DNA of 64,000 nucleotides from assembly GCA_013001975.1 (NCBI GenBank), contig JABDKX010000030.1, positions 1 through 64,000 of the forward strand, given 5' to 3'. This DNA comes from Saprospiraceae bacterium (GTDB taxonomy: Bacteria; Bacteroidota; Bacteroidia; Chitinophagales; Saprospiraceae). Positions 6,747-64,000 of this stretch are shown here, piece by piece (the stretch's first letter is position 1; each line of letters opens with the position of its first letter). The notes beneath the pieces are model-generated. The model did no database searches. It had not been told where the DNA came from and was given only the letters and a program-made list of their open reading frames with translations. Position numbers and translations under genes: made by a program.

Positions 6747-7472
6747 CTATATAGATTTATTAATGTTCAATGATTTTATAGCAAAAGAAGAAGCAATTTG
6801 CTCAGCTGACTTTTTATTGAAGTCTTCTGCAACAGATATTTCTTTACCATCAAGATAAACACCGATTTTAAATCTGTCACGCTTATCCTTTTTATATTTA
6901 TTCAATAACTTGTAAGCCACATTGCGACCTTCCTTTTGACCCCACTCCAAAAGTTGACTTTTGTAATTATCATCACTCGTCTCTAATTCGTGGATATCAA
7001 GTAGTCGCATCAAAATTTTAGAAATAATATAATCTCTGGTTCTATCATAGCCGTATTCAATATAAAGGGCTCCAACCATTGCTTCAAATGCATTTCCTAA
7101 CATTGAATAACTGAGCTTTCCTTGAGTATACTTGGTGAGGATGAGATCAATGCCCATTTTTTCAGCTACCTTATTGAGCGTTTTACGTTTGACTATTTTT
7201 GATCTCATTTTGGTTAAAAAACCTTCATCTCGATTTGGATATTTCTTATATAAATATTCCGCAACAATTGTAGATAAGACAGAATCTCCTAAATATTCCA
7301 GCCTTTCATTGTTATAAGTACGTATAGCGGTATCCGTATTATTCATTGACTTATGAAAAAAAGCCAATTTGAATAATTTTAGATTATCTGGTACAAAGCC
7401 TAATACAGACTTTAACTTTCTAGCCAGATCTCTTTCCCTAGAAATGTAATAATTGTAAAACCTCTTGATCAC
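6747..7472 (-). CDS. rnc: Ribonuclease III
   Basis: RNase III cleaves double-stranded RNA in rRNA and mRNA maturation. Residues 1-155 are the endonuclease domain with the signature ERLEYLGDSVL at 57-67 and the second metal-binding part NAFEAMVGALY around 127-137 (Glu130). Residues about 165-238 form a double-stranded RNA-binding domain ending in KKSAEQIASSFAIKSL. Total length 241 is normal. It starts 8 bases after fabF stops; acpP-fabF-rnc is a conserved order in many Bacteroidota, supporting one transcription unit. Confidence 0.96.
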   Translation of the reverse strand: MIKRFYNYYISRERDLARKLKSVLGFVPDNLKLFKLAFFHKSMNNTDTAIRTYNNERLEYLGDSVLSTIVAEYLYKKYPNRDEGFLTKMRSKIVKRKTLNKVAEKMGIDLILTKYTQGKLSYSMLGNAFEAMVGALYIEYGYDRTRDYIISKILMRLLDIHELETSDDNYKSQLLEWGQKEGRNVAYKLLNKYKKDKRDRFKIGVYLDGKEISVAEDFNKKSAEQIASSFAIKSLNINKSI

Positions 7473-7480
7473 ATCTTAAG

Positions 7481-8722
7481 TTACATCTTTTTAAAAATAA
7501 CTGTTGAATTGTGACCTCCAAAACCAAAAGTGTTGCTCAATGCAACTTTTACATCGCGTTTTTGAGCTTTATTGAATGTAAAGTTAATCTTTTCATCTAA
7601 TTCTGGGTCGTCTGTAAAGTGATTAATTGTAGGTGGAACCATAGATTCGTTTATAGCCACAATACACGCAATCGCCTCAACAGCCCCTGCAGCACCTAAT
7701 AAATGGCCTGTCATCGACTTAGTTGAACTTATATTTAAATCATAAATATGATCTCCGAAAACTTTTTTAATTGCCTTTGTTTCAGCAATATCTCCTAAAG
7801 GTGTTGATGTACCATGTACATTTATATAATCAACTTCTGAAGGTTGAATATTCGCATCATTTAATGCCATTTGCATGACTTCACTTGCACCCAATCCTTC
7901 AGGATGTGGCGCTGTCATATGATACGCATCAGCAGTAGCTCCAGCTCCAATAACTTCCGCATAAATCTTAGCTCCTCTGGCTTTTGCAAACTCGTATTCT
8001 TCCAATATTAATGCACCGCCGCCTTCGCCAAGTAAAAAGCCATCTCTGTCTTTATCGAATGGACGACTTGCAGTAAGTGGATCATCATTTCTTTCTGACA
8101 ATGCTTTCATTGAAGAAAATCCTCCAATCCCTGCTTTGGTAATAGCAGCTTCCGATCCTCCTGTGATCATCACATCACATCTGCCTAACCTTATGGTATC
8201 AAATGCCGCAGAAATAGAGTGACTCGAAGAGGCACAAGCTGACATCGTTGTATAGTTAACACCTCTAAAGCCATACTTCATTGAAATGTGACCAGGCGCT
8301 ATATCAGCAATCAGTTTAGGAATAAGAAACGGGCTATATCTTGGCGTTCCAGTGTTTAAAGTAGCATCTTCAATATCTTTTTCGATAGTTTCAAATCCAC
8401 CTATTCCACTTCCCCAAATAACACCGGCTCTGTTTAATTTTATTTTTGAGATATCCAATCCGCTATCATTCATAGCTTCTTCAGCTACAATCATAGCAAA
8501 TTGAGAGAATCTGTCTAATCTTCTCACATCCCTTCTATGAAATCTTTCCTCAGGAACATAATCTTTAACCTCAGCTGCAAAGCGGGTTTTAAATTTAGAA
8601 GCATCAAATCTGGTGATTGGATTAGCACCACTTTTTCCTTCTAATAATCCATTAACATATTCTTGATAAGTATTGCCTATCGGGGTGAAGGCACCAATAC
8701 CAGTGACTACGACTCTTTTCAT
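7481..8722 (-). CDS. fabF: Beta-ketoacyl-ACP synthase II
   Basis: FabF elongates acyl chains by condensing malonyl-ACP with acyl-ACP in type II fatty acid synthesis. The 413-residue thiolase-fold enzyme keeps the catalytic triad: Cys163 in SACASSSHS, His303 in VHGTSTPLGD and His340 in GHLLGAAGA. The start ATG matches the family N terminus (KRVVVTGIGAFTPIG). Its substrate carrier acpP lies directly upstream, separated by 82 bases that hold a strong hairpin terminator, so fabF probably receives only part of the acpP transcription. Confidence 0.97.
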   Translation of the reverse strand: MKRVVVTGIGAFTPIGNTYQEYVNGLLEGKSGANPITRFDASKFKTRFAAEVKDYVPEERFHRRDVRRLDRFSQFAMIVAEEAMNDSGLDISKIKLNRAGVIWGSGIGGFETIEKDIEDATLNTGTPRYSPFLIPKLIADIAPGHISMKYGFRGVNYTTMSACASSSHSISAAFDTIRLGRCDVMITGGSEAAITKAGIGGFSSMKALSERNDDPLTASRPFDKDRDGFLLGEGGGALILEEYEFAKARGAKIYAEVIGAGATADAYHMTAPHPEGLGASEVMQMALNDANIQPSEVDYINVHGTSTPLGDIAETKAIKKVFGDHIYDLNISSTKSMTGHLLGAAGAVEAIACIVAINESMVPPTINHFTDDPELDEKINFTFNKAQKRDVKVALSNTFGFGGHNSTVIFKKM

Positions 8723-8751
8723 TGTGCGGTTTAAGTTTGGTGAAGGTAAGA

Positions 8752-8783
8752 AAGAAAAAAAATCCGCAAGTTTCCTTGCGGAT
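8752..8783 (-). terminator. Intrinsic terminator/attenuator between acpP and fabF
   Basis: On the minus strand a perfect 9-bp stem (ATCCGCAAG / CTTGCGGAT, 4-nt loop, 8763-8783 region) is followed by a T-rich run (TTTTTTTCTTT). It sits after the acpP stop and before the fabF ATG, in the sense direction for both. It probably sets a high acpP to fabF ratio. Confidence 0.85.
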
Positions 8784-8804
8784 CAAAGTTATTTCTTGAA
8801 AATT

Positions 8805-9041
8805 TTAATTTTTTGCGCTTTCAAGGTAGCTAACAGCCATTCCAACAGTTTGAATCTTTTCAGCTTCTTCATCAGGAATTGCAATATCAAATTCTTTTTC
8901 GAATTCCATAATTAATTCTACGGTATCCAAAGAATCTGCACCTAAATCATTAGTAAAGCTTGAGTCATTTGAAATTTCAGACTCATCAACACCTAGTTTA
9001 TCAACGATAATTTGACGTACTTTCTCAGCAATGTTTGACAT
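8805..9041 (-). CDS. acpP: Acyl carrier protein
   Basis: A 78-residue acidic four-helix carrier. The phosphopantetheine attachment site is Ser37 in the classic [11 protein letters not shown] motif. It shuttles acyl chains as thioesters in fatty acid synthesis. The first ATG gives the usual length, and the [12 protein letters not shown] helix III is typical. It is the first gene of an operon with fabF and rnc, preceded by a recognisable Bacteroidota promoter at 9071-9100 and followed by an intrinsic terminator, consistent with very high expression of acpP alone. Confidence 0.97.
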
Positions 9042-9070
9042 AATAATATAATTTTTTTGATTTCGTGCCG

Positions 9071-51130: not shown

Positions 51131-54100
51131 TTAGTCTATAATTACAGACTTAACAAATTCATCTTTTTCTGAACTGGCTTTCAAAATATAGTAACCAGGT
51201 TTTAGGCCTTTAAACTCAGACTTAAATAATGTCTGAAGATTGGTTGCATTTACCTTTGGTTGATTAAATACTTCTTCTCCCCATTTATTAAAAATCACTA
51301 TTTGCACTTCATTTGAGGCTTGCAATTTTTGTTGAATCGCTGCACTCAATGCTTCAATAGGATCAGCTATTGAATTAATTGGATTTGTAGGATCTGTAAA
51401 AGAACCATCATCGCAAGGTCCAATCTCAGCTTCAAATTCAGTACCGGCAACCACTTCAAATCCAGGATCTAAATCAATGGTATTGCCAGCTCTAAATAAT
51501 ATTGATTGTCCATTATCTGCTACTGCATCTGAAGTTATGTCTATTTCGGCTGCATATGTATTTTGCGTTATATTATTTATAACTAAGCTGGTACCGTCAC
51601 ATGGTGGTGGTGGCGCACAGCCTTCGTCAATTACGTTATCACAATCGTTATCAATACCATCACAAATTTCAGTGGCTCCAGGATTCACATTTGCATCCAG
51701 GTCATCACAATCTGTATCATCTAAAACGAAACCAGATGGTGGACTGCAAGCATCCATTGTTACTGCTGCATCTCCATAACCATCATCATCGATATCACGA
51801 TAATAAGTAGTCATAACGCCTTCATCAGTGTTGCCATCACAGTTGTTATCGATACCATCACATACTTCCGGATTCCCAGGAAATGCATTTGGTTCGTTAT
51901 CATCACAATCTGTGTTGTCAACTACATATCCAGCTGGTTGAGAACATGCTTGTACGAATACATTTGCATCTCCATATGTATCATTATCAAAATCTCTGAA
52001 ATACATATTCAACAGGCCTTCATCTGTATTGCCATCACAATTGTTATCAATACCATCACAAACTTCGGGGTTTCCAGGAAAAGCATTTGGTTCATCATCA
52101 TCGCAATCACCAGTGATAGCTGTTAATTCTGCTACAACTTTATAACCTGCTGGTCTGTTACATTGCGTTGTATTGACACCATCACTATACCCGTCATCAT
52201 CCGCGTCTTTATACCAAAGTTGTCCAGGGAACTCCAATGGATCGTTATCATCACAGTCTGTATTATCAAGAACGAATCCTGAAGGCGGCGTACAAGCTTG
52301 TGTTGTTACCCCAGGATTTCCAAAACCATCAGCATCCAAATCACGATAATATGTTATTGTGACGCCTTCATCAATATTCCCATCACAGTTATTATCAACG
52401 CCGTCACATATTTCTGTTGCTGCAGGATTTATTAATGCATCGTTATCATCACAATCTGTATTGTCTAAGACATAACCAGTTGGTTGTGATGCTGATTGCT
52501 GAGAGTTGTTAGGATCACCATAAGTATCATTGTCTAAATCACGATACCATGTTTGCGTGCCGTAAGTACAAGATCCATCGTCAATAGTTGCAGCAGGATC
52601 ATAATTTGTTGCTGCGGGATCTGTACAACCTAAAACCTGTGGCACATCAAAGTAAAAACTATAATCTTCCACTTCTCCAGTTGAAGGAGATGTACATCCA
52701 TTGGCTCCGATTGAGGTCGTTGATACAATGATTCTAAACCTCAGTAATTCTGCAGTCACTGGAGATGTTGCCGTTGTCAATGTCAAACCTAAGTTTCCGT
52801 TTCCAGAAAAGGTAAACAGAGCTGACGCTTCACCAGTATCCGTAAAATCTCCATCATTATTATAATCTACAAAATATCTGATTCTTGAAACACCTGTTAC
52901 ACCAACGACCAAAGTATAAGCTGTATTTTCATCCATTGTTCCTATATCAGAACAAGAAAAATCATCATAAATACCTGAAGCTGTTGACGAAGTCGAAATG
53001 TTAGAAATTGAAACACCGGTTATTCCACCGCTGCCGCCGCCACCTGATGGTGTACAAGGATTTGGTGGTGCTGCTTGAATATCCACATAATTTGTAAAAT
53101 CATCAGAACCTGCACTGTTAGTTGAGGTTACTTTTGCATAATGTAAACCAGCTGTATTATATGTGATCAATGGTTTTTCATCTGTTGAAGACGCAGGAGA
53201 CCCAGTTGGAAAATCCCAAGATCTGGTTGCCCCATATTGTGATTGATCTTCAAACTCAATATCTTCTCCTGTACAAACAGCGATTGCTGATTGGAAAAAG
53301 TTACCTACTGGAGGGCCGATTGTTGAGCAATCTAACAAATAACCTTGTGCACTAACACGCGTATTAATTGTATTTTTTGTTCCTGTGTTCCAATTTTCAG
53401 TAATAAGAACACTCGGGTACATTATATTGGTATTCGAAGAATCGTGTCCTGCGTTCCAATTGTGCCCTATTTCATGTGTTACCATTGACTTTAGACTTGG
53501 TGCAGATCCACCATAGTTTTCCAACAGATGATGCCATCCTGGCGTGTAAGCCAGTCCAACTGTGCCGGCGTTTCCGTTAAAAACAATATCTCTATCAGTC
53601 CATAATCCTGCCATGGTGTAATCAACACCAAATTCACCAGTTGCGCCACCTGAGTTTCCTCCTCCAGCATTTCCGGGTCCTCTTGCCCAGTTTCTAAAAT
53701 TACTTAATAATGTACTTGCATTGGTTGTGCCTGTGTTGGGATCTAATGGATCATTTGCTGAACTAGAAGGAACAAAATGAGCAACGACGTCATATTCTAA
53801 ATTAGCGTCAAATTCTGATCTGTAATTTGTTTGAACATCATTTAGAACGCCTAAGTTAAAATTCATTACTCCTGTTACATCAGTGTAGGCTGCTACCATG
53901 TCATAGGTATTGGCAATGGCGTAGTCTATAATTTTACATAATGTGGTTGGCATTTTTGATGGGGTGTCATCTTTTATTTTGTAACCTTTTACTTGATCAC
54001 TACCACATGTATGTTCTCCTGTCTCTATTACATGAGCTACATAATATTTCACAAATAAATTTCTTGGTGCATTTTTTTCAAAATGTCTCAAAGGTTCAAT

Positions 54101-54481
54101 ATAAATAGTTGCGCTGCCTTCCTTTATAAAACCAAAAATGAAATCATCATTAATGGTAAGACTTACAAGCCCACCGACATTTGTAGAACCTCCTAAACAC
54201 AAGGGCATATTTGGTTTTTCAAATGAAACTGTTAAGTTATCAGTGTAAAGATTTAATTCATATTTCAGATCTTCCAAATACAGATCTAAAAAAGGTGTTT
54301 TAGATGTGATATTTACATCTTCCTTTTTAACATCAATACTGAAAATTTCATATTCCGATACATTAGCATCTAGATTTTCATAAATTTCACTTGATTCGTA
54401 TTTCTCCCCTATAATCGTAGATTGACTAAATGAAATATTAACTATCGATAAGAATAAAAACAATAATAATGCTTGACGCAT
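51131..54481 (-). CDS. T9SS-secreted metalloprotease with PKD, GEVED and MopE repeats
   Basis: A 1116-residue secreted protein from the ATG at 54481 (signal MRQALLLFLFLSIVNISFSQ). The metzincin-like catalytic domain (about 190-400) has HEIGHNWNAGH (His336, Glu337, His340, His346) and a Met-turn in NIMYPS. Then a PKD-type domain (about 405-480), a GEVED domain (about 500-615), a DPAATNYDPAATIDDGSC segment, five MopE-type calcium-binding repeats (about 640-960), a coathanger-like beta domain and a C-terminal sorting region. The last mixes a type B-like IFNKWGEEVFN with a type A-like GYYILKASSEKDEFVKSV ending. It is probably exported by T9SS and acts outside the cell. Confidence 0.9.
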   Translation of the reverse strand: MRQALLLFLFLSIVNISFSQSTIIGEKYESSEIYENLDANVSEYEIFSIDVKKEDVNITSKTPFLDLYLEDLKYELNLYTDNLTVSFEKPNMPLCLGGSTNVGGLVSLTINDDFIFGFIKEGSATIYIEPLRHFEKNAPRNLFVKYYVAHVIETGEHTCGSDQVKGYKIKDDTPSKMPTTLCKIIDYAIANTYDMVAAYTDVTGVMNFNLGVLNDVQTNYRSEFDANLEYDVVAHFVPSSSANDPLDPNTGTTNASTLLSNFRNWARGPGNAGGGNSGGATGEFGVDYTMAGLWTDRDIVFNGNAGTVGLAYTPGWHHLLENYGGSAPSLKSMVTHEIGHNWNAGHDSSNTNIMYPSVLITENWNTGTKNTINTRVSAQGYLLDCSTIGPPVGNFFQSAIAVCTGEDIEFEDQSQYGATRSWDFPTGSPASSTDEKPLITYNTAGLHYAKVTSTNSAGSDDFTNYVDIQAAPPNPCTPSGGGGSGGITGVSISNISTSSTASGIYDDFSCSDIGTMDENTAYTLVVGVTGVSRIRYFVDYNNDGDFTDTGEASALFTFSGNGNLGLTLTTATSPVTAELLRFRIIVSTTSIGANGCTSPSTGEVEDYSFYFDVPQVLGCTDPAATNYDPAATIDDGSCTYGTQTWYRDLDNDTYGDPNNSQQSASQPTGYVLDNTDCDDNDALINPAATEICDGVDNNCDGNIDEGVTITYYRDLDADGFGNPGVTTQACTPPSGFVLDNTDCDDNDPLEFPGQLWYKDADDDGYSDGVNTTQCNRPAGYKVVAELTAITGDCDDDEPNAFPGNPEVCDGIDNNCDGNTDEGLLNMYFRDFDNDTYGDANVFVQACSQPAGYVVDNTDCDDNEPNAFPGNPEVCDGIDNNCDGNTDEGVMTTYYRDIDDDGYGDAAVTMDACSPPSGFVLDDTDCDDLDANVNPGATEICDGIDNDCDNVIDEGCAPPPPCDGTSLVINNITQNTYAAEIDITSDAVADNGQSILFRAGNTIDLDPGFEVVAGTEFEAEIGPCDDGSFTDPTNPINSIADPIEALSAAIQQKLQASNEVQIVIFNKWGEEVFNQPKVNATNLQTLFKSEFKGLKPGYYILKASSEKDEFVKSVIID
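51600..52560 (-). repeat. Tandem MopE-type repeats inside the metalloprotease gene
   Basis: About five units of 60-70 codons encode YRDxDxDxYG, then DNTDCDDNDxxxNP, then EICDGxDNNCDGNxDEG. One unit is shortened and lacks the CDGxDNNCDG part. The two units near 51830-51910 and 52010-52090 are nearly identical in DNA, indicating recent duplication or gene conversion. Confidence 0.85.
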
Positions 54482-54596
54482 AGATTTAGAATTTGAATTT
54501 AGCAAATTGGATTGTTATAATAATTGTTGCTTGATAGCTTTTTAATATTAAGGGATTTCAAAAATAATAAATATTAAAACCTTGTGCTTTAAGGGT

Positions 54597-57017: not shown

Positions 57018-57662
57018 CTAGTATACAAGATTTAAAATACCATTGACATACTTAGAATGCTTAGTTAACCTAAAAGGAAAGTGTGATGCAATTGCATTAA
57101 ATAACTTATGGTTTTCCTGATCAAACTTTATTTCTATTATTTGCTTTTCATCAATGAAGATTGGAGTGTCAATATTTCTAAAATTGTTTGGAAGCCAATA
57201 TGATACGTCATGATCAACAGTCAATCTAAATTTGTTGCTGTTGTCAATATAATAACTGCGATTATAGCTGTTAATTAAACTAGGAAATAAATCGGATCTT
57301 TTTAATTTTTCATTTACCTCTTTTGCGAGTTCGGGAACAGAGTTTGGATTTTCTAGCTCGAGATATTCTTTACAACCCAAAGCATTGTTTTTTATTTTAA
57401 ATTCTAATTTTCCATCAGTAAAGTTCTCAAAGTCACCATACCACCTGTATCTTATTTTAGTCCTGTTAGAAATTCCAGATAAATTTTCTTGACAAGATTG
57501 GAAATGCAAATTATCGAAGTAAACATTATTAACTCGTCGGTCTGGATAAGTCGTTTTAAATCCTGCTGGATGTAAATGCAAAACATGTAAAAACGAGGAA
57601 AATGCGATTGGGTCAATAGCATATTTTAACTCATATCTATATTCCGATAATTTCTTAGTCAT
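57018..57662 (-). CDS. VTC-domain polyphosphate polymerase-like protein
   Basis: A 214-residue stand-alone VTC (CYTH-like tunnel) domain. Conserved basic and acidic tunnel residues are visible: Lys13 (YELKYAI), YFDN (48-51), the alternating RTKIRYR (Arg67, Lys69, Arg71, Arg73), ExK in LEFKIK (Glu87, Lys89), Glu177/Lys179 in IIEIKF, and RLTKHSKYVNG (198-208) at the end. In yeast Vtc4 these bind ATP and the growing chain, making polyphosphate. There is no SPX domain and no membrane span. It overlaps the CotH-like gene by 8 bases. Polymerase activity is predicted, not shown. Confidence 0.88.
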   Translation of the reverse strand: MTKKLSEYRYELKYAIDPIAFSSFLHVLHLHPAGFKTTYPDRRVNNVYFDNLHFQSCQENLSGISNRTKIRYRWYGDFENFTDGKLEFKIKNNALGCKEYLELENPNSVPELAKEVNEKLKRSDLFPSLINSYNRSYYIDNSNKFRLTVDHDVSYWLPNNFRNIDTPIFIDEKQIIEIKFDQENHKLFNAIASHFPFRLTKHSKYVNGILNLVY

Positions 57663-60537
57663 TGATTATTAAAGATGACTTTTCTTCTATTAGGTAATTG
57701 CGTTTTACATTCTTTAGTTTGGTATCTTCTATTACAATTTTTGCTGGGCCAAACTCTGGTTTCTTCTGAAAAGCAGCTAAGCCAGTTTCACAATTATCAA
57801 TTGTTGAATTATATATTTTTAACAAGGAATTGTCTTTAGATGCAGCTCCAATTACGGCGCCATTGATATTACTAAACCTTACGGTAACTGTACTTTGTTC
57901 TCCGGCACTTATGCCTTTATCACCTGCTTTATCAATTGTTGTATTAACAACTTCAATGACTGACCCGGATACGTCAATAGCATCATTACCACTTTTGATA
58001 TATCGACAGTCTTTGATTTTTCCTTTGCAAAAATCTGCATCGAAAGCATCTCCAAATGTGCCGTAAAAGATACATTTATTCAATTCAAAATCTGATCGAA
58101 TTATGTTTAAAGCGTCTTCACAGTTATTGTTTCTGAATGAGACATTTGTAATATCCACATCACTTTCATAGAAATTAACGGCACCTGTTAAATTCCAATC
58201 TTCTTTAATAAAAGTATTTTGATTTTCGAATACAACATGTTTCAGTTCAGATTTTTCTTCTGCTTGCATAACGACGATACTTCCATTCTTACCATCTTCA
58301 CTATTAATCGTAATTGGGTTGTCTACATCTCCAATAAATTTTATCGGAGAATAACTAAAAATGCATCCATCACTATTAAAAGAAATTTCTGTGTCGCTAA
58401 ACATCCTAACTCTTTTATTCTCTCCAATAACTAACGGCTTATTAATGACGTGTGTACCTTTTTTAAAAACGACATTATTCTCATCATGATCAAGTATAGT
58501 TGTGTATTCATTAAGATCTGAAAGCGATAATTTTTGCCTGGGTGTCAATCCTTTTGGCGATGCCCAATTTACTATGTCAACTGTATGTATAGAATCTATT
58601 CCTAAAACTTGAAACTTTATTCTCTTTGCTGCTTTTGGAACTTGAAATTCTGTGTACGAAATAGAAGTGGATTTGTTTTGAGGATAAACTATTACACTTT
58701 CCTTTGATCTTTCATTTAGAAAAACATTTAGTGGAAATCCATGACTATTAAAAAGTTTTAACGTGGCTGTCTCACCCTCTATTTTTTCACGAAAAGCCAA
58801 CAAGCTTTTTTTGAACGCTGGAAGCGCTATGCGAATTTTTTTAGCTTTATTGAGTATCTCTTCTCGATCATATTTATACTTAGGCATTCTTTGATTTAAG
58901 AAATGCTCTCTTTCTATAATACCTTCATTTATTTCATCAAGGATGCGATCAATAAATTCAGGTTGAGAATATTCATTTAAATAATAAAAATACTCTTTGG
59001 CAAATTTATCATCATAGAATAATTGCTCTAAAGGCTCATAAGGATCGATTCTGTTTTTATAAAAGAATTCTGAATGGATATCATTAGCATAGGCATTCGG
59101 ATCTTCTGGTGTATACGCATCAAAACCTATAGGTTCCAAAAGTGATGTTACCGGGTTATAATAAAATCTTTGGTTATGCCATGTAACGGCATGGTGTGCT
59201 AAACAAACATCAACCAGAGCCATATATTTCGCCAATCGTTTGAGATCAAAAATCTGATCGACGGGTTTCAAATTATATTTGTATTGATTCATTAAATTTT
59301 GAGCAACATCAAAGTTGTTTTTTAGCGTTGGATTTTTTGCTAGTTTTCCTTCTTTAAAAGCCCTTACTTCTGACATCCAATAGGCTTTGTCTTTTTCTTC
59401 GATTTTTGGCAATGAACCTCCAAAATGTTTAGCTGTTCGTCTGGTTACATCCCAGATACGATCTTCTGTCAATTTTAAAATCGGTCCTTCTCTTCTTTGA
59501 CCATTTTCAACTAAGTTTTTCGTAAAGTGTTCTTCATATGAAAAAACGACAGGTTTGTTATTATTTTCTTGATAGTAGCAAAAGTCATATCGGGGATGTA
59601 ATACATCTGCATAATCTAAAAACTTGAAGAACACCCATTCTCTCAAAAACCCTCTCGTTCTCGGTTCCTGAATTGAAAAGCTTTGCATACCTAGCCAACT
59701 TTCCTCACTGTTCATATCTATTCTATATGAAGAATAATTACTGATATGATCTAACCAATCACCTTTGAGTCTCATGCTCAATTTTTTCTCTACACCATTA
59801 TCAATAATTTTCGCTTTGGTTTTGGTTCCATCATTATAAATAGTTCCTTGAGCAATTGACTTTTTGGTCATTTTTTTCAAGTAATCTTGAGCTTCTTTAT
59901 TAAGTTGTAAATGGAATGTATGAGGTACAAACTTTTGATACTTGAGTTGGATGGTATCATCAGGCATTTCTTTTATAAGAAAATCATCAAAGTATATCTC
60001 ATTAGGACCTTCTTCCATATAAGTATAAATCTTGATTTCATTAACAGGTAAATTGGAGGGCACTTGAAAATTGAGTTCTCTTTTATCCCAAAAATCACCA
60101 TTCCTTTCTACTGTTTTTGAAGTTGATTTATAAAAAACTTCTGGATCATCGCCAGATACAACCAAATGAGCAGTTACAGGATGTGGATTAATTGACCAAA
60201 CACTTACATTATATCTTCTTCCTTTAACTGGGTTTTTCATTATGTAAGTCATTCCAAACCTATTCTTGGCGTCTAGTTTGGAAGAATATTTTCCATTAAG
60301 TGCCTTTTCCTTCGATTGTGTATGTGCACCAAAAATCAAATTTTTGCCATTCTTAAATGCATCGCCTTCAACATTTTCAGCTCCGCAAAATATAACTTCT
60401 CCAGTAAATATATTTCCACTTTTTTTAGGCGTGTTATTTAGACCAAACTTAAGGTATACAACAAGTGCGAAAATCAATGCCAAGGCAATGATCCATTTCT
60501 TAGAATTATTATGATATGCCTTCCCTTTTACTATCAT
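57655..60537 (-). CDS. CotH-like kinase with C-terminal beta-helix
   Basis: A 960-residue membrane-anchored protein. Residues 14-32 form an N-terminal span; a beta domain (about 40-200) is followed by a CotH kinase-like region (about 210-590): GDWLDHISNYSSYRIDMNSE, then TWHNQRFYYNPVTSLLEPIGFDAYTPED near 447-470, the atypical active-site part of the family. The last third (about 680-960) is a right-handed beta-helix with regular short turns (SDVDITNVSFRNNNCEDALNI, SGNDAIDVSGS). CotH proteins are secreted-type kinases that phosphorylate surface proteins. Here it is fused to a carbohydrate-binding-like helix and coupled by overlaps to VTC and DUF4956 genes. Confidence 0.85.
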   Translation of the reverse strand: MIVKGKAYHNNSKKWIIALALIFALVVYLKFGLNNTPKKSGNIFTGEVIFCGAENVEGDAFKNGKNLIFGAHTQSKEKALNGKYSSKLDAKNRFGMTYIMKNPVKGRRYNVSVWSINPHPVTAHLVVSGDDPEVFYKSTSKTVERNGDFWDKRELNFQVPSNLPVNEIKIYTYMEEGPNEIYFDDFLIKEMPDDTIQLKYQKFVPHTFHLQLNKEAQDYLKKMTKKSIAQGTIYNDGTKTKAKIIDNGVEKKLSMRLKGDWLDHISNYSSYRIDMNSEESWLGMQSFSIQEPRTRGFLREWVFFKFLDYADVLHPRYDFCYYQENNNKPVVFSYEEHFTKNLVENGQRREGPILKLTEDRIWDVTRRTAKHFGGSLPKIEEKDKAYWMSEVRAFKEGKLAKNPTLKNNFDVAQNLMNQYKYNLKPVDQIFDLKRLAKYMALVDVCLAHHAVTWHNQRFYYNPVTSLLEPIGFDAYTPEDPNAYANDIHSEFFYKNRIDPYEPLEQLFYDDKFAKEYFYYLNEYSQPEFIDRILDEINEGIIEREHFLNQRMPKYKYDREEILNKAKKIRIALPAFKKSLLAFREKIEGETATLKLFNSHGFPLNVFLNERSKESVIVYPQNKSTSISYTEFQVPKAAKRIKFQVLGIDSIHTVDIVNWASPKGLTPRQKLSLSDLNEYTTILDHDENNVVFKKGTHVINKPLVIGENKRVRMFSDTEISFNSDGCIFSYSPIKFIGDVDNPITINSEDGKNGSIVVMQAEEKSELKHVVFENQNTFIKEDWNLTGAVNFYESDVDITNVSFRNNNCEDALNIIRSDFELNKCIFYGTFGDAFDADFCKGKIKDCRYIKSGNDAIDVSGSVIEVVNTTIDKAGDKGISAGEQSTVTVRFSNINGAVIGAASKDNSLLKIYNSTIDNCETGLAAFQKKPEFGPAKIVIEDTKLKNVKRNYLIEEKSSLIIND

Positions 60538-61208
60538 ATAACCATATCAGGTTGATCCATTATACTTACTTTTACATTTTCATCTTTTGCCTTTAATGCT
60601 GCAGATAAGTCATTTATATCTTTAATACTGTTAGCTTTAGACAAAAAACATGCAAGCATACCGTTAGCATCTTTTTCCATACGCTTAAATTCTACATGAG
60701 AACAATGCTCCGACATGATTGATGATAATGTAGAAACATCTAAATTGGCAGTTGTAATATTAATAAGCATCTTGTTTTTTGATTCGAAAGATTTGGCACC
60801 AATACTTGTATTGAAGTAAATCAAAGGGAGAATTATGAAGATCGCTAAAATGGCAAGTATGGGTTTGTTTGCTCCACAAGTCAATCCAACGCCAATAATT
60901 AAAAATATGTAAGTTAACTCTTCAGGTTCTTTTATAGCTGCTCTAAATCTGACTATTGATAAGGCTCCAACCAAACCTAATGAAAGTGCAATTGAGGCTT
61001 GTACTACGGTTATAATTAATAATGTTGCCAATGCCATAGGAACAAAAATTATGGCAAATTTTTCTCGATTAGAAAAGCTTTTACCAAATTTTATATAGAA
61101 CCATTTGATTATTAAACTCAATATGGTTGCAATGACCATATTTATAATAAAATCAAGGATATTAACTGTATTGGTAAAGTCAGCCAAGTACTCTTCGAAT
61201 TTCAACAT
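60534..61208 (-). CDS. DUF4956 membrane protein
   Basis: A 224-residue protein of unknown function. About four spans lie in residues 16-135. The family hallmark is seen just after span 3: GLVGALSIVRFRAAIKEPEE (78-97). A soluble C-terminal domain (about 140-224) with a ferredoxin-like beta-alpha pattern (LINITTANLDVSTLSSIMSEH) faces one side of the membrane. DUF4956, VTC and CotH genes occur together in many bacteria, suggesting a membrane partner for the polymerase. It overlaps the CotH-like gene by 4 bases and follows the phosphoesterase by 42. Confidence 0.9.
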   Translation of the reverse strand: MLKFEEYLADFTNTVNILDFIINMVIATILSLIIKWFYIKFGKSFSNREKFAIIFVPMALATLLIITVVQASIALSLGLVGALSIVRFRAAIKEPEELTYIFLIIGVGLTCGANKPILAILAIFIILPLIYFNTSIGAKSFESKNKMLINITTANLDVSTLSSIMSEHCSHVEFKRMEKDANGMLACFLSKANSIKDINDLSAALKAKDENVKVSIMDQPDMVI

Positions 61209-61250
61209 TAGCTTTAGTTTTTATTTTTACGTTAAGCGAATGTGAAATTA

Positions 61251-62180
61251 TTATAAATTCTCTAAAGGGATATACTCTCCATTAAAAGATTTATCAATAT
61301 TGTCGAATTTGAATATAAGAACAGAGTCTGGCTCAGAGTTATACTTAGAAATTAATACATCATTATTGGTCTTAAGAACTGAGTTGTTGATTCCAGTTAC
61401 ATAATACTGAATATCAGAATAGCCTTTTTGATAAAAAGTTTTTTGATATTGACCTCCATCTCCAGCAACACAGATAACATTGATACCTTGATTTTGAATT
61501 TCTTTTAGCTTGTTAAAATATTCTGTACGAAATGTACTTAACTTTCCACAGTAAAAACTCATCCATGCTGCCTTTTGATTTCCTATTCTTTCATAATTGG
61601 TCAAGGGTTGTTCACAATCAGACCAAATAGCTTGGTGAGAAAAAATAATAAGATTATCAATTTGACCTTCAGAGATTAAAATTTGATCTAATTGATCGTG
61701 GAAAAAATCACCCTGATTTGCTCTCCACTCGCAACTATCTTTCATTAAATCATGCGTCATCTGAGTATTGAGTACAATAACCTGCCCCGCCTCGAAGTCG
61801 TAACTATAATAACTATCCCGATTGGTAATATTCTGTATAAACTCAAAATTTCCATTTCGAATATCATGATTACCCAAAGCCCATAGTGTATGAGCAGATT
61901 CTAAGTTAAAATGGTGATCAAGATATTTTATCGTTTCTGATGATTTTGTAGTTTCAGAACAGATATCACCTCCTAGCCAAATTCCTTTATAATTCTTAAA
62001 GTTTACTTTTTCTAGTCGTTTGTCAATTCTGCTCCCGTCTGCCGTCCAGTCATAGATGTGCCCTAAAACAACATAAGTTTTTTGAGACTCTATTTTTTCA
62101 AAATTTTGGCATGAGAAGAAAAGTATTGTTGCGATTGACAGCAACGTAAGAAAATGATTCATTTGAAGTGAAGAAATCAT
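61251..62180 (-). CDS. Metallophosphoesterase-like lipoprotein with altered metal motifs
   Basis: A 309-residue calcineurin-like phosphoesterase with a lipoprotein signal (lipobox Cys near residue 24 in ATILFFSC). Motif 2 GGDIC (70-74), motif 3 GNHDIR (103-108) and motif 4 FSHQAIW are intact. Motif 1, normally DxH, reads GHIYDW (40-45), and the final GHxH reads VAGDGGQY, so the two-metal site must be built differently. The start at 62180 overlaps the GT2 gene by 4 bases; Met7 (62162) would also give the signal. The substrate is unknown; a lipid- or sugar-linked phosphate is plausible from context. Confidence 0.83.
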   Translation of the reverse strand: MISSLQMNHFLTLLSIATILFFSCQNFEKIESQKTYVVLGHIYDWTADGSRIDKRLEKVNFKNYKGIWLGGDICSETTKSSETIKYLDHHFNLESAHTLWALGNHDIRNGNFEFIQNITNRDSYYSYDFEAGQVIVLNTQMTHDLMKDSCEWRANQGDFFHDQLDQILISEGQIDNLIIFSHQAIWSDCEQPLTNYERIGNQKAAWMSFYCGKLSTFRTEYFNKLKEIQNQGINVICVAGDGGQYQKTFYQKGYSDIQYYVTGINNSVLKTNNDVLISKYNSEPDSVLIFKFDNIDKSFNGEYIPLENL

Positions 62181-62923
62181 TTTTTAGTATATATCTTTGA
62201 TTTAATGAGGCCAATTTTATTAATTCTATGGGAAAGTGATACTGCTAGAACACCCAAACCGTATTTAATACTTCTCTTTAAATTTATTGAAGATGCTTCA
62301 TCAAAATACTTTGTTGGACATGTGACTTCTCCAATATCAAAACCATGGTAGACAATCTGTGAAAGCATTTGGTTATCAAAAACAAAATCATCAGAATTGG
62401 CATTAAAATTTATCGATTCTAAGACCTCTCTGCTAAACGCTCTGTAGCCAGTATGGTATTCAGATAATTTGTAATTGATAAGGATATTTTGAAAAAGTGT
62501 CAAAAAGCGATTAGCAATATATTTATAGATCGGCATTCCTCCCTTTAAAGCTCCTTTACCCAAAATTCTAGACCCTAATACAACTGGATACAATTCATCT
62601 CCAATGATATTTACCATTGAAGGAATCAGTTTGGGCGTATATTGATAATCTGGATGCAACATAATAACGATGTCACCACCTAAATCTAATGCTTTATTAT
62701 ACAGAGACTTTTGATTTCCACCATACCCTTTATTGTTATCATGCTTGATCACATGTTGAATGCCTATTGACTTGGCCAATTCAACCGTATTGTCTGTGCT
62801 AGCATCATCACAGAGAATTACCTCGTCAACTAAATTGAAAGGAATTTCATTATATGTTTTCTCTAGAGTAGCCGCGGCATTATAAGCTGGCAAGACTGCA
62901 ATTACTTTTTTATTATTGTACAT
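62177..62923 (-). CDS. Family 2 glycosyltransferase (dolichyl-phosphate-sugar synthase-like)
   Basis: A 248-residue GT-A fold enzyme. The N terminus VIAVLPAYNAAATLEKTY, the nucleotide-binding LCDDASTDNTVELA and the metal-binding HPDYQY (where DxD usually sits) match polyprenyl-phosphate mannosyl/glucosyltransferase-like GT2 proteins; FRAFSREV-like GYRAFSREVL follows. There are no C-terminal spans, so it acts at the inner face of the membrane. It is coupled to the phosphoesterase by an ATGA overlap and follows a polytopic membrane protein, a typical pair for surface-glycan sugar transfer. Confidence 0.92.
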   Translation of the reverse strand: MYNNKKVIAVLPAYNAAATLEKTYNEIPFNLVDEVILCDDASTDNTVELAKSIGIQHVIKHDNNKGYGGNQKSLYNKALDLGGDIVIMLHPDYQYTPKLIPSMVNIIGDELYPVVLGSRILGKGALKGGMPIYKYIANRFLTLFQNILINYKLSEYHTGYRAFSREVLESINFNANSDDFVFDNQMLSQIVYHGFDIGEVTCPTKYFDEASSINLKRSIKYGLGVLAVSLSHRINKIGLIKSKIYTKK

Positions 62924-63036: not shown

Positions 63037-63999
63037 TTATTTCTTCATATAAATTTCGCAAATACTTTTTCTATTTTTAATGGTCTTTACTTTTTCCCAT
63101 ACTTTCTTATCTATAAATTTTCGATGGGTTTCCAATGATAATTCCAAGTTAGACAGAATCCATACATCCTTATCAGATTTTCTAAATGACTCCACATCCA
63201 AAAATTCTTGTCCTTCTTTCACATACCTACAATTGGCATTTGTCAATATTGCCCTTTCTATAAAATTTGCTTCGATTGGCACATCTTTATCCACATTATC
63301 ATTTAAATATTTAACAAGACTTTTGTGATTTTTAATCACATCTGCATATCCAGTATCTGTATCTCCAAATTCACGTTTTTGATTTCGCCCAAGCGTCATA
63401 ATTAACATAATGGCTATCAGAACATACTGTATTTTCCAATTGTAAACTTTCATCAGCTCGTTTAAAACAAACGAGAAAATAATCGAATAGAAAATAATAA
63501 TGATGATGGTATATCTGACTGAATAGAAATTGGCAGCAGAAAAAAGAAGGTAACCAAGTATAAAAAACCAGCCAATACAAATAAACTTTTTCTGCAACGC
63601 TGATTTATACTTCAAGTGAAGTAATCCAATCCCGATTGTTATCATCAATATAAATCCTGGACCGAAAACATTTTTATGAGGTATATTAAATCCTAAAAAT
63701 AAAATTATAGCGAAAATCACCACTTTTATATAAGTATTTATTCTCTTATCATGAGGGTTTTGAAGCTTTAACAATTTACATAAGGCACCTATAAACAAAA
63801 GACTAAAAACAAATAGATATCGGGCATCAAATATTGTTCTGTAATACTGAGAAAATTTATTTGAAACACTTCGCAGGTTTAAATCAATATGCCCAACATG
63901 AGCAGGAAATAAATACCAGCCTAACGAAATTTTTTGTTGAATGAAATGCCCCAAAATAAATACCAAAGGAATACTTGCTAATAAATATCGACGATAAGA
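63037..63999 (-). CDS. Polytopic membrane protein, possible GT39/ArnT-like glycosyltransferase (5' end outside window)
   Basis: The frame continues past the right edge, so only the C-terminal 320 or so residues are visible. They hold about six to eight hydrophobic segments, then a soluble C-terminal domain (about the last 100 residues, with KSLVKYLNDNVDKDVPIEANFIERAILTNANC and DVWILSNLEL). The pattern of spans followed by a periplasmic alpha/beta domain fits lipid-phosphate-sugar dependent glycosyltransferases such as PMT/ArnT types. The catalytic N-terminal part lies outside the window, so the family is not certain. A GT2 gene 113 bases downstream could supply its polyprenyl-phosphate sugar. 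Confidence 0.6.
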   Translation of the reverse strand, partial: SYRRYLLASIPLVFILGHFIQQKISLGWYLFPAHVGHIDLNLRSVSNKFSQYYRTIFDARYLFVFSLLFIGALCKLLKLQNPHDKRINTYIKVVIFAIILFLGFNIPHKNVFGPGFILMITIGIGLLHLKYKSALQKKFICIGWFFILGYLLFSAANFYSVRYTIIIIIFYSIIFSFVLNELMKVYNWKIQYVLIAIMLIMTLGRNQKREFGDTDTGYADVIKNHKSLVKYLNDNVDKDVPIEANFIERAILTNANCRYVKEGQEFLDVESFRKSDKDVWILSNLELSLETHRKFIDKKVWEKVKTIKNRKSICEIYMKK

Positions 64000-64000
64000 A

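Follow-up and report, generated by a model that had tools for sequence, protein, structure and literature searches.

A conserved DUF4956, CotH-type kinase, and VTC gene core in a Saprospiraceae genome and its tentative link to phosphate transfer at the cell envelope

The window, the whole 64,000-nucleotide stretch of a Saprospiraceae contig (JABDKX010000030.1) that was analyzed, contains five co-directional genes on the minus strand near its end. Read along that strand, they encode a GT2 glycosyltransferase (62177-62923; 248 aa; Pfam, 1.1e-20), a calcineurin-like metallophosphoesterase that is a predicted lipoprotein (61251-62180; 309 aa; Pfam Metallophos, 3.4e-5), a DUF4956 membrane protein (60534-61208; 224 aa; Pfam, 6.2e-16), a CotH-type kinase protein (57655-60537; 960 aa; profile and fold match), and a VTC-domain protein of the TTM superfamily (57018-57662; 214 aa; Pfam, 8.2e-28). 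The three overlaps (4, 4, and 8 bases) and the one 42-base gap given in the original prediction agree exactly with the ORF listing. A convergent CNNM/CorC gene lies 6 bases downstream of the VTC gene. Past 62923, the co-directional run continues with a polytopic membrane protein that has a weak PMT_2 match (63037-64000, minus strand, truncated where the window ends; its full length is 525 aa on the contig, where it extends to position 64614), and beyond it lies a divergent gene for a 750-aa polytopic membrane protein with no Pfam match. Elsewhere in the window (51131-54505), the ORF list includes a large secreted-looking protein with a HEIGHNWNAGHD stretch, presumably resembling zinc proteases, and repeated Asp/Cys-rich segments.

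The 960-aa window protein matched no Pfam family at E ≤ 0.1, and a search of the PDB with this sequence alone gave no match of note. A 59-row profile, by contrast, matched Bacillus cereus CotH (5jd9) at an E value of 5.6e-6 over positions 235 to 580, and the AlphaFold2 model (mean pLDDT, 91.7) retrieved CotH structures 5jd9 and 5jda first in Foldseek (E values, 6.1e-10 and 8.2e-10), followed by GH87, AlgG, and CBM22/16. Superposition on the same two CotH structures with VIA-align gave Z scores of 25.5 and 25.7 over 327 to 328 residues (rmsd, 3.4). Among five relatives scanned, four passed Pfam CotH (PF08757; cut-off, 23.8 bits), namely those of loci L061 (33.7 bits), L118 (29.4 bits), L160 (29.3 bits), and L155 (48 bits), and the relative in L157 had no PF08757 match. 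The original label of “CotH” therefore fails by Pfam on the window protein itself but is sustained by the profile of its relatives, by the fold, and by the relatives that pass PF08757.

The CotH-type protein has one N-terminal transmembrane helix (residues ~12 to 31), and the rest is predicted to be extracytoplasmic. This part comprises a carbohydrate-binding-module (CBM)-like jelly roll (59968-60396; residues ~48 to 190), the CotH kinase domain (58729-59928; residues ~204 to 603), and a right-handed β-helix (57658-58548; residues ~664 to 960), all encoded on the minus strand. The CBM region matched xylanase CBMs by profile (3jxs and 1k42; E values, 0.0044 and 0.0083, the former match spanning residues 102 to 195) and CBM22 and CBM16 by Foldseek (E value, ~1e-4). 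The β-helix aligned with AlgG (4ozz/4nk6) at a VIA-align Z score of 28.2 (rmsd, 2.4; 269 residues), and Pfam Beta_helix was over the cut-off in L118, L160, and L155 and below it in L061. Although the 58 aligned relatives are only 25 to 58% identical to the window protein, 31 columns show no variation across the 59 rows, among them R256, K258, E335, E336, H449, N455, and D473 in the kinase domain and the acidic residues D830, D833, D835, and D852 in the β-helix. From our reading of the aligned motif, D473 would be the counterpart of the Asp replaced in the inactive D228Q variant of Bacillus subtilis CotH (available text of PMC7821199). The architecture varies among relatives, being shorter (821 to 839 aa) in four of the seven loci that contain a CYTH-type gene, and the aligned L061 protein is without most of the CBM region. 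The CBM-like domain and the AlgG-like β-helix point to polysaccharide, and we lean toward the view that the predicted kinase acts on a glycan.

The VTC-domain protein scored 98 bits against Pfam VTC (cut-off, 23), and its profile matched yeast Vtc4 (3g3q) at an E value of 2.9e-9 in a PDB profile search. R9, E11, K13, R67, K69, R71, R73, E87, K89, K98, R135, R146, and D150 are invariant in 36 aligned rows, and those from R67 onward, which take in the tunnel Arg/Lys and metal Glu positions, are identical in all 79 rows from all gene contexts (93 rows before duplicate removal), with E177 kept in 78 of the 79 and a gap in the other. According to the available text of PMC4641920, four basic residues of Vtc4p that guide the polyphosphate product out correspond to Glu in the phosphatase AtTTM3. 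At these positions, mapped by motif and not by superposition, the window protein has basic R9, K98, and K179 and acidic E11; in the DUF4956-only group, 5 of 14 rows have Asp at position 11. The SKF lysine of Vtc4, which we take to be the catalytic Lys-458 of PMC4641920, aligns with K204 of the window protein. On these residues, we read the window VTC as polymerase-type, with the reservation that E11 is phosphatase-like. It is quite probably an active TTM enzyme and is predicted to be a cytoplasmic polyphosphate polymerase-type enzyme; Pfam and hydrophobicity revealed no transmembrane segment, SPX domain, or Vtc1-type transmembrane domain in it. The window genome also encodes PPK1, so that VTC would be dispensable for polyphosphate in general. 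A plasmid search with VTC gave no match.

The DUF4956 protein combines a transmembrane region with an ACT/PII-like C-terminal domain (AlphaFold2 pLDDT, 82.0; pTM, 0.55). Its Foldseek matches were weak, with prephenate dehydrogenase best (2.3e-3), many entries for PII-like SbtB (4.5e-3), and none at E ≤ 0.001. Similarity to MgtC was below the Pfam cut-off (E value, 0.082), and a sequence search of the PDB gave no match at E ≤ 1. For the transmembrane region, no convincing fold match was obtained; the VIA-align rows covered mainly the C-terminal domain, with elongation factor G leading.

Gene linkage around the CotH-type gene was compared in 79 named loci, taken from the CotH-like alignment and thus from the best 80 of 271 relatives; only 36 of them extend more than 4 kb on each side, and some absences may be due to cut-off contigs. 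Counted within 5 kb of the CotH-like gene, 57 of these loci have DUF4956, 33 VTC, 29 both, 22 the phosphoesterase, and 11 GT2. The gene directly before the CotH-like gene, on the same strand, is DUF4956 in 48 loci, 33 of which have a 4-base overlap, and the gene directly after it is VTC in 26. Given that the aligned relatives have such low identity to the window protein, the DUF4956-CotH adjacency is more than chance. We considered and rejected a fixed five-gene operon, as all five genes fall within 5 kb in only three of the 79 loci (L103, L122, and L160). Among the loci read, the order GT2-phosphoesterase-DUF4956-CotH-VTC recurs in one other genome (L033/L122), and GT2 sits downstream of VTC in L039/L103 and L056. 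DUF4956-CotH-VTC is thus the conserved heart of the block, and GT2 and the phosphoesterase are recurrent but optional. The original prediction is therefore partly supported: VTC, DUF4956, and the CotH-type protein form a conserved membrane-linked unit, the VTC tunnel residues are kept, and the kinase leans toward a glycan, but the block is not a fixed five-gene system. The missing co-occurrence that the prediction named as its refutation does not apply to the three-gene core and applies in part to GT2 and the phosphoesterase.

A VTC search of 148 relatives found 68 places in 61 genomes; 67 of these lie outside the window, of which 60 were read; some of these genomes also contributed to the 79 named loci. 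All 61 VTC genomes have DUF4956, compared with 101 of the 148 relatives (hypergeometric, 9.5e-15, a figure that treats related genomes as independent). Among 296 phylum genomes, a set that overlaps with the relatives, DUF4956 is present in all 48 VTC genomes, and 54 of 55 VTC places are within 6 kb of one. VTC and DUF4956 both match in the same three of 14 control genomes, and VTC, DUF4956, and CotH all match, as separate families, in the control genomes of Corynebacterium glutamicum and Methanosarcina acetivorans. A classical CotH match is found within 3.5 kb of at least 13 of the 55 phylum VTC places.

The relatives' loci and the window together hold 59 VTC genes. A CotH-type gene is found within 3 kb of 32 of them, and 16 have no DUF4956 and no CotH-type gene within that distance; for three of these 16 the start is within 0.5 kb of the locus end, and for the one in L075 it is within 1.2 kb. 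Ten of the 16 (L046, L047, L049, L051, L052, L059, L060, L071, L079, and L081) lie in or beside a block of ribAB (DHBP synthase/GTP cyclohydrolase II; not called in L052), a 400-aa GT2, and a GT1, with cupin and peptidase M1 genes in some loci and a divergent PorP/SprF gene in several. The VTC proteins of this group (12 rows) are identical at 19 of 20 checked positions, with position 201 being K in 10 rows and R in 2.

Other arrangements were also observed. A variety with no VTC in the region viewed (L123, L127, L139, L141, L144, L147, and L162) has a divergent ~229-aa membrane gene, DUF4956, the CotH-type gene, and a ~908-aa protein; in the one example scanned, from L147, this protein carries GSDH and PKD domains together with a T9SS tail match below the threshold. 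The ~229-aa gene beside DUF4956 in VTC-less loci (cluster c4) was considered as a hidden VTC and rejected (profile E value, ≥0.14; no Pfam family over the cut-off). L055 (6314-15841) and L132, probably the same contig, carry three CotH-type genes in a run around a single VTC gene; L109 has two head-to-head CotH-VTC sets that flank one DUF4956 gene and a CYTH gene; and L147 has a set without VTC beside a CYTH-containing set. In L118, the gene at 7422-9044 and the gene preceding it belong to one family and sit just ahead of DUF4956 and the CotH-type gene; the one scanned is a classical CotH (PF08757, 6.6e-51).

The phosphoesterase has GH, GD, GNHD, H, and GD motifs that are invariant or near-invariant in 23 rows, with an N-terminal hydrophobic segment in 22 and a strict lipobox in 11, the window protein included; given this extracytoplasmic N terminus, any trimming would occur outside the cytoplasm. 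Its profile matched only general metallophosphoesterases in the PDB (best, 2xmo at 2.4e-4), which gave no clue to the substrate. As an obligate part of the system it was rejected, with 41 places in 35 of 148 relatives and 13 of these within 10 kb of VTC. Among the 20 places read of the 28 others, four are beside a window-type CotH gene (L201, L204, L205, and L206), and L208 is near a fragment. A stop interrupts the phosphoesterase reading frame in genome G002 (L034:4792-5706). GT2 has no transmembrane segment and resembles polyprenyl-phosphate sugar synthases; its NCBIfam matches are to dolichyl/polyprenyl-phosphate hexose transferases, all far below the cut-off. The 525-aa protein (PMT_2, 7.2e-5 and 23.5 bits, below the cut-off of 26.1; 11 hydrophobic segments) is a putative lipid-linked-sugar-dependent glycosyltransferase, with one relative (L092) among the 79 named loci from the best 80 of 271 relatives. 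It was also tried as a member of cluster c11, with no match. The 750-aa protein belongs to the c7 family (E value, 1.9e-242), members of which occur in 11 of the same named loci; c7 accompanies GT2 and the phosphoesterase in L103, L122, and L125, GT2 in L166, and the phosphoesterase in L093.

Related loci add further envelope-associated genes. Nine, including L109 and L147, encode a ~300-aa CYTH-type protein between DUF4956 and CotH. Three of four scanned passed the Pfam CYTH cut-off of 23.2 bits (31.5, 30.4, and 24.0), and the fourth scored 20.0. By Kyte-Doolittle hydropathy, which is not a trained predictor, all nine proteins have hydrophobic segments at both the N and C termini, and the domain is accordingly predicted to lie outside the cytoplasm. 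The motifs ExExK, RxExK, and ExELELNE do not vary, those of the acidic patch carry Glu, and by the same Vtc4p/AtTTM3 criterion the protein would be phosphatase-type. The CYTH profile had no match in the PDB at 0.1, and its TTM assignment therefore rests on Pfam CYTH and the motifs. In a 20-locus phylum set (19 loci from other genomes and 18 VTC genes; most of the first nine were picked for a nearby CotH), a co-oriented HlyD-type gene lies within 3 kb of 11 of the 18 VTC genes, with only fragments of 233 and 95 aa in L185, and a DUF2490-type barrel gene lies within 3 kb of five. Of four representatives scanned, those in L182 and L177 were over the HlyD_3 cut-off and those in L190 and L181 were below it; DUF2490 in L091 scored 89.3 bits. 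The window genome has a second DUF4956 (L177:8664-10440, contig C32), whose neighbors are an HlyD-type gene and a 397-aa gene lacking any match; the 20 kb read around it contain no VTC. Because of the CYTH, HlyD-type, and barrel neighbors, delivery of the product to the envelope is favored, and we put the chance that the VTC product reaches the envelope at about even.

Taken together, we tentatively propose that the block is an envelope phosphate-transfer system, in which VTC-DUF4956 brings polyphosphate to the envelope and the CotH-type kinase modifies a glycan, a reading that we consider plausible while stopping short of calling it probable. The cytoplasmic VTC would make polyphosphate from ATP via its polymerase-type tunnel, and DUF4956, the candidate membrane partner suggested by gene linkage, would carry the polymer through the inner membrane or gate its passage, a task that in yeast falls to the transmembrane channel of VTC and that would here be done by a different protein. 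Outside the cytoplasm, the membrane-anchored CotH-type kinase, as its architecture suggests, would phosphorylate a glycan. The recurrent GT2 and membrane glycosyltransferase-like proteins may make or decorate this glycan with lipid-linked sugar, and the lipoprotein phosphoesterase may remove phosphate. Related operons would swap or add envelope parts, namely an HlyD-type adaptor, an outer-membrane barrel, or an extracytoplasmic CYTH protein. We count for this proposal the gene linkage, the genome co-occurrence, the tunnel residues, the envelope neighbors, the CBM and AlgG folds, and the coupling of polyphosphate synthesis to translocation by yeast VTC (available text of PMC9911596). We count against it the partnerless VTC genes, the many DUF4956-CotH loci with no VTC in view (VTC is within 5 kb in 33 of the 79 loci from the best 80 of 271 relatives), E11, PPK1, the VTC deletion in Streptococcus intermedius, and the DUF4956 searches that gave no sequence match in the PDB at E ≤ 1 and no convincing fold for the transmembrane part. 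The choice of most of the first nine phylum loci for a nearby CotH, and the two of four scanned HlyD representatives below the HlyD_3 cut-off, also weigh against it.

Part of this evidence might also fit a looser association, which we consider unlikely, in which VTC-DUF4956 exports polyphosphate as a matrix component and the CotH-type kinase uses another donor, the genes being neighbors through a shared matrix and not through one feeding the other. The adjacency of the trio to Gram-positive pel exopolysaccharide genes (available text of PMC7112168 and PMC12345266) and the HlyD-type genes or barrels that adjoin VTC-DUF4956 without a window-type kinase agree with such an arrangement, but the 4-base DUF4956-CotH overlap in 33 of 79 loci (best 80 of 271 relatives) suggests closer coupling, and polyphosphate outside the cells is presumed only. 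To about the same low degree, we credit a regulatory role in which no polymer crosses the membrane: DUF4956 would sense a cytoplasmic nucleotide and control glycan synthesis, and VTC would make or break a small cytoplasmic phosphate compound as a signal. The weak likeness of the DUF4956 C-terminal domain to PII-like SbtB and ACT-bearing proteins and the sub-cut-off MgtC similarity speak for this role, as do deletions in S. intermedius, where the DUF4956-type and CotH genes, but not the VTC gene, are reported to matter. In the available text of PMC12345266, strains with deletions of each of the four accessory genes still aggregate; in 10% artificial sputum, aggregation drops by over half upon deletion of SIR_1592 or SIR_1594, the former strain having more Pel and the latter less. 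Aggregation and Pel production persisted in the strain with a deletion of SIR_1593, the VTC gene, for which that text reports no effect, and VTC may thus be dispensable under those conditions. The identification of the S. intermedius MgtC/ACT-type gene as DUF4956 is our own. A regulatory role would, however, leave the predicted extracytoplasmic CYTH, HlyD-type, and barrel neighbors unexplained.

The kinase itself might be an ordinary secreted protein kinase that acts on surface proteins, with the CBM and β-helix serving only as matrix anchors. Its solved relative 5jd9 is titled a CotH kinase, and B. subtilis CotH phosphorylates the coat protein CotB (available text of PMC7821199). Invariant D830, D833, D835, and D852 in the β-helix would nevertheless be unusual for a passive anchor, and 11 of 79 loci (best 80 of 271 relatives) have a GT2 gene close by; we regard this as improbable and as the weakest of the three alternatives.

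Returning to the envelope phosphate-transfer proposal, the source of the phosphoryl donor for kinases outside the bacterial cytoplasm is, to our knowledge, an open question. Polyphosphate could be the donor of the CotH-type kinase, an assignment that we consider rather unlikely. With slightly more doubt still, we speculate that a VTC-DUF4956 synthase-exporter feeds polyphosphate to the extracytoplasmic CotH-type kinase, so that polysaccharide is phosphorylated where ATP is scarce, and that the same core with varied envelope parts (a kinase with a β-helix, a polyphosphatase-type extracytoplasmic CYTH protein, an HlyD-type adaptor, or an outer-membrane barrel) represents a general bacterial polyphosphate-secreting class. 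If this were true, it would provide one answer both to the phosphate supply of extracytoplasmic kinases and to bacterial polyphosphate export, from a gene set present in 48 of 296 phylum genomes. The CotH family would gain a polysaccharide-directed branch, and DUF4956 would gain a testable function.

Compared with known systems, the window locus shares with the Gram-positive pel accessory genes SIR_1592 to SIR_1594 the same three families side by side and a link to extracellular polysaccharide. It differs in that the window CotH has a CBM and a β-helix, whereas the pel-locus CotH has FN3, and in the addition of GT2, the phosphoesterase, and membrane proteins. A pel link for the window locus was rejected, as DUF3492 (PF11997), which we take to be the PelF domain, had no match in the window genome. 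CotH, a poly-phosphate polymerase, and DUF4956 have been described beside Gram-positive pel genes (available text of PMC7112168), and the trio arrangement was not found outside the Pel locus according to the available text of PMC12345266; we found the trio in Saprospiraceae, here in a genome with no DUF3492 match, and also in other Bacteroidota. A Clostridium perfringens locus with VTC genes and CotH has been reported as well (available text of PMC2879425). The original prediction of an undescribed system thus applies to context and architecture only, since the co-occurrence of the core was already in print in the two pel papers.

The window TTM domain is homologous to that of Vtc4 in the yeast VTC complex, and the tunnel residues are kept. 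The eukaryotic complex includes an SPX domain and a Vtc1-type transmembrane domain, whereas the window protein is a VTC domain only, without SPX or transmembrane parts, and DUF4956 is a different membrane protein. With B. cereus CotH (5jd9), the window protein shares the kinase fold (Z score, 25.5 over 327 residues; profile positions 235 to 580), but it has no Pfam CotH match and has a membrane anchor, CBM, and β-helix in addition. The mannuronan C-5 epimerase AlgG is the best fold match of the β-helix (Z score, 28.2), with other β-helix proteins trailing at 22 to 27; identity is 11% over the residues aligned in this fold comparison, and the window helix is fused to a kinase. No bacterial polyphosphate-exporting machine was found among the open-licence papers searched. 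To judge from the same kind of search, four features are apparently new: the domain architecture of the kinase protein, the presence of a CYTH protein, the partners of HlyD and barrel type, and the near-strict association of VTC with DUF4956.
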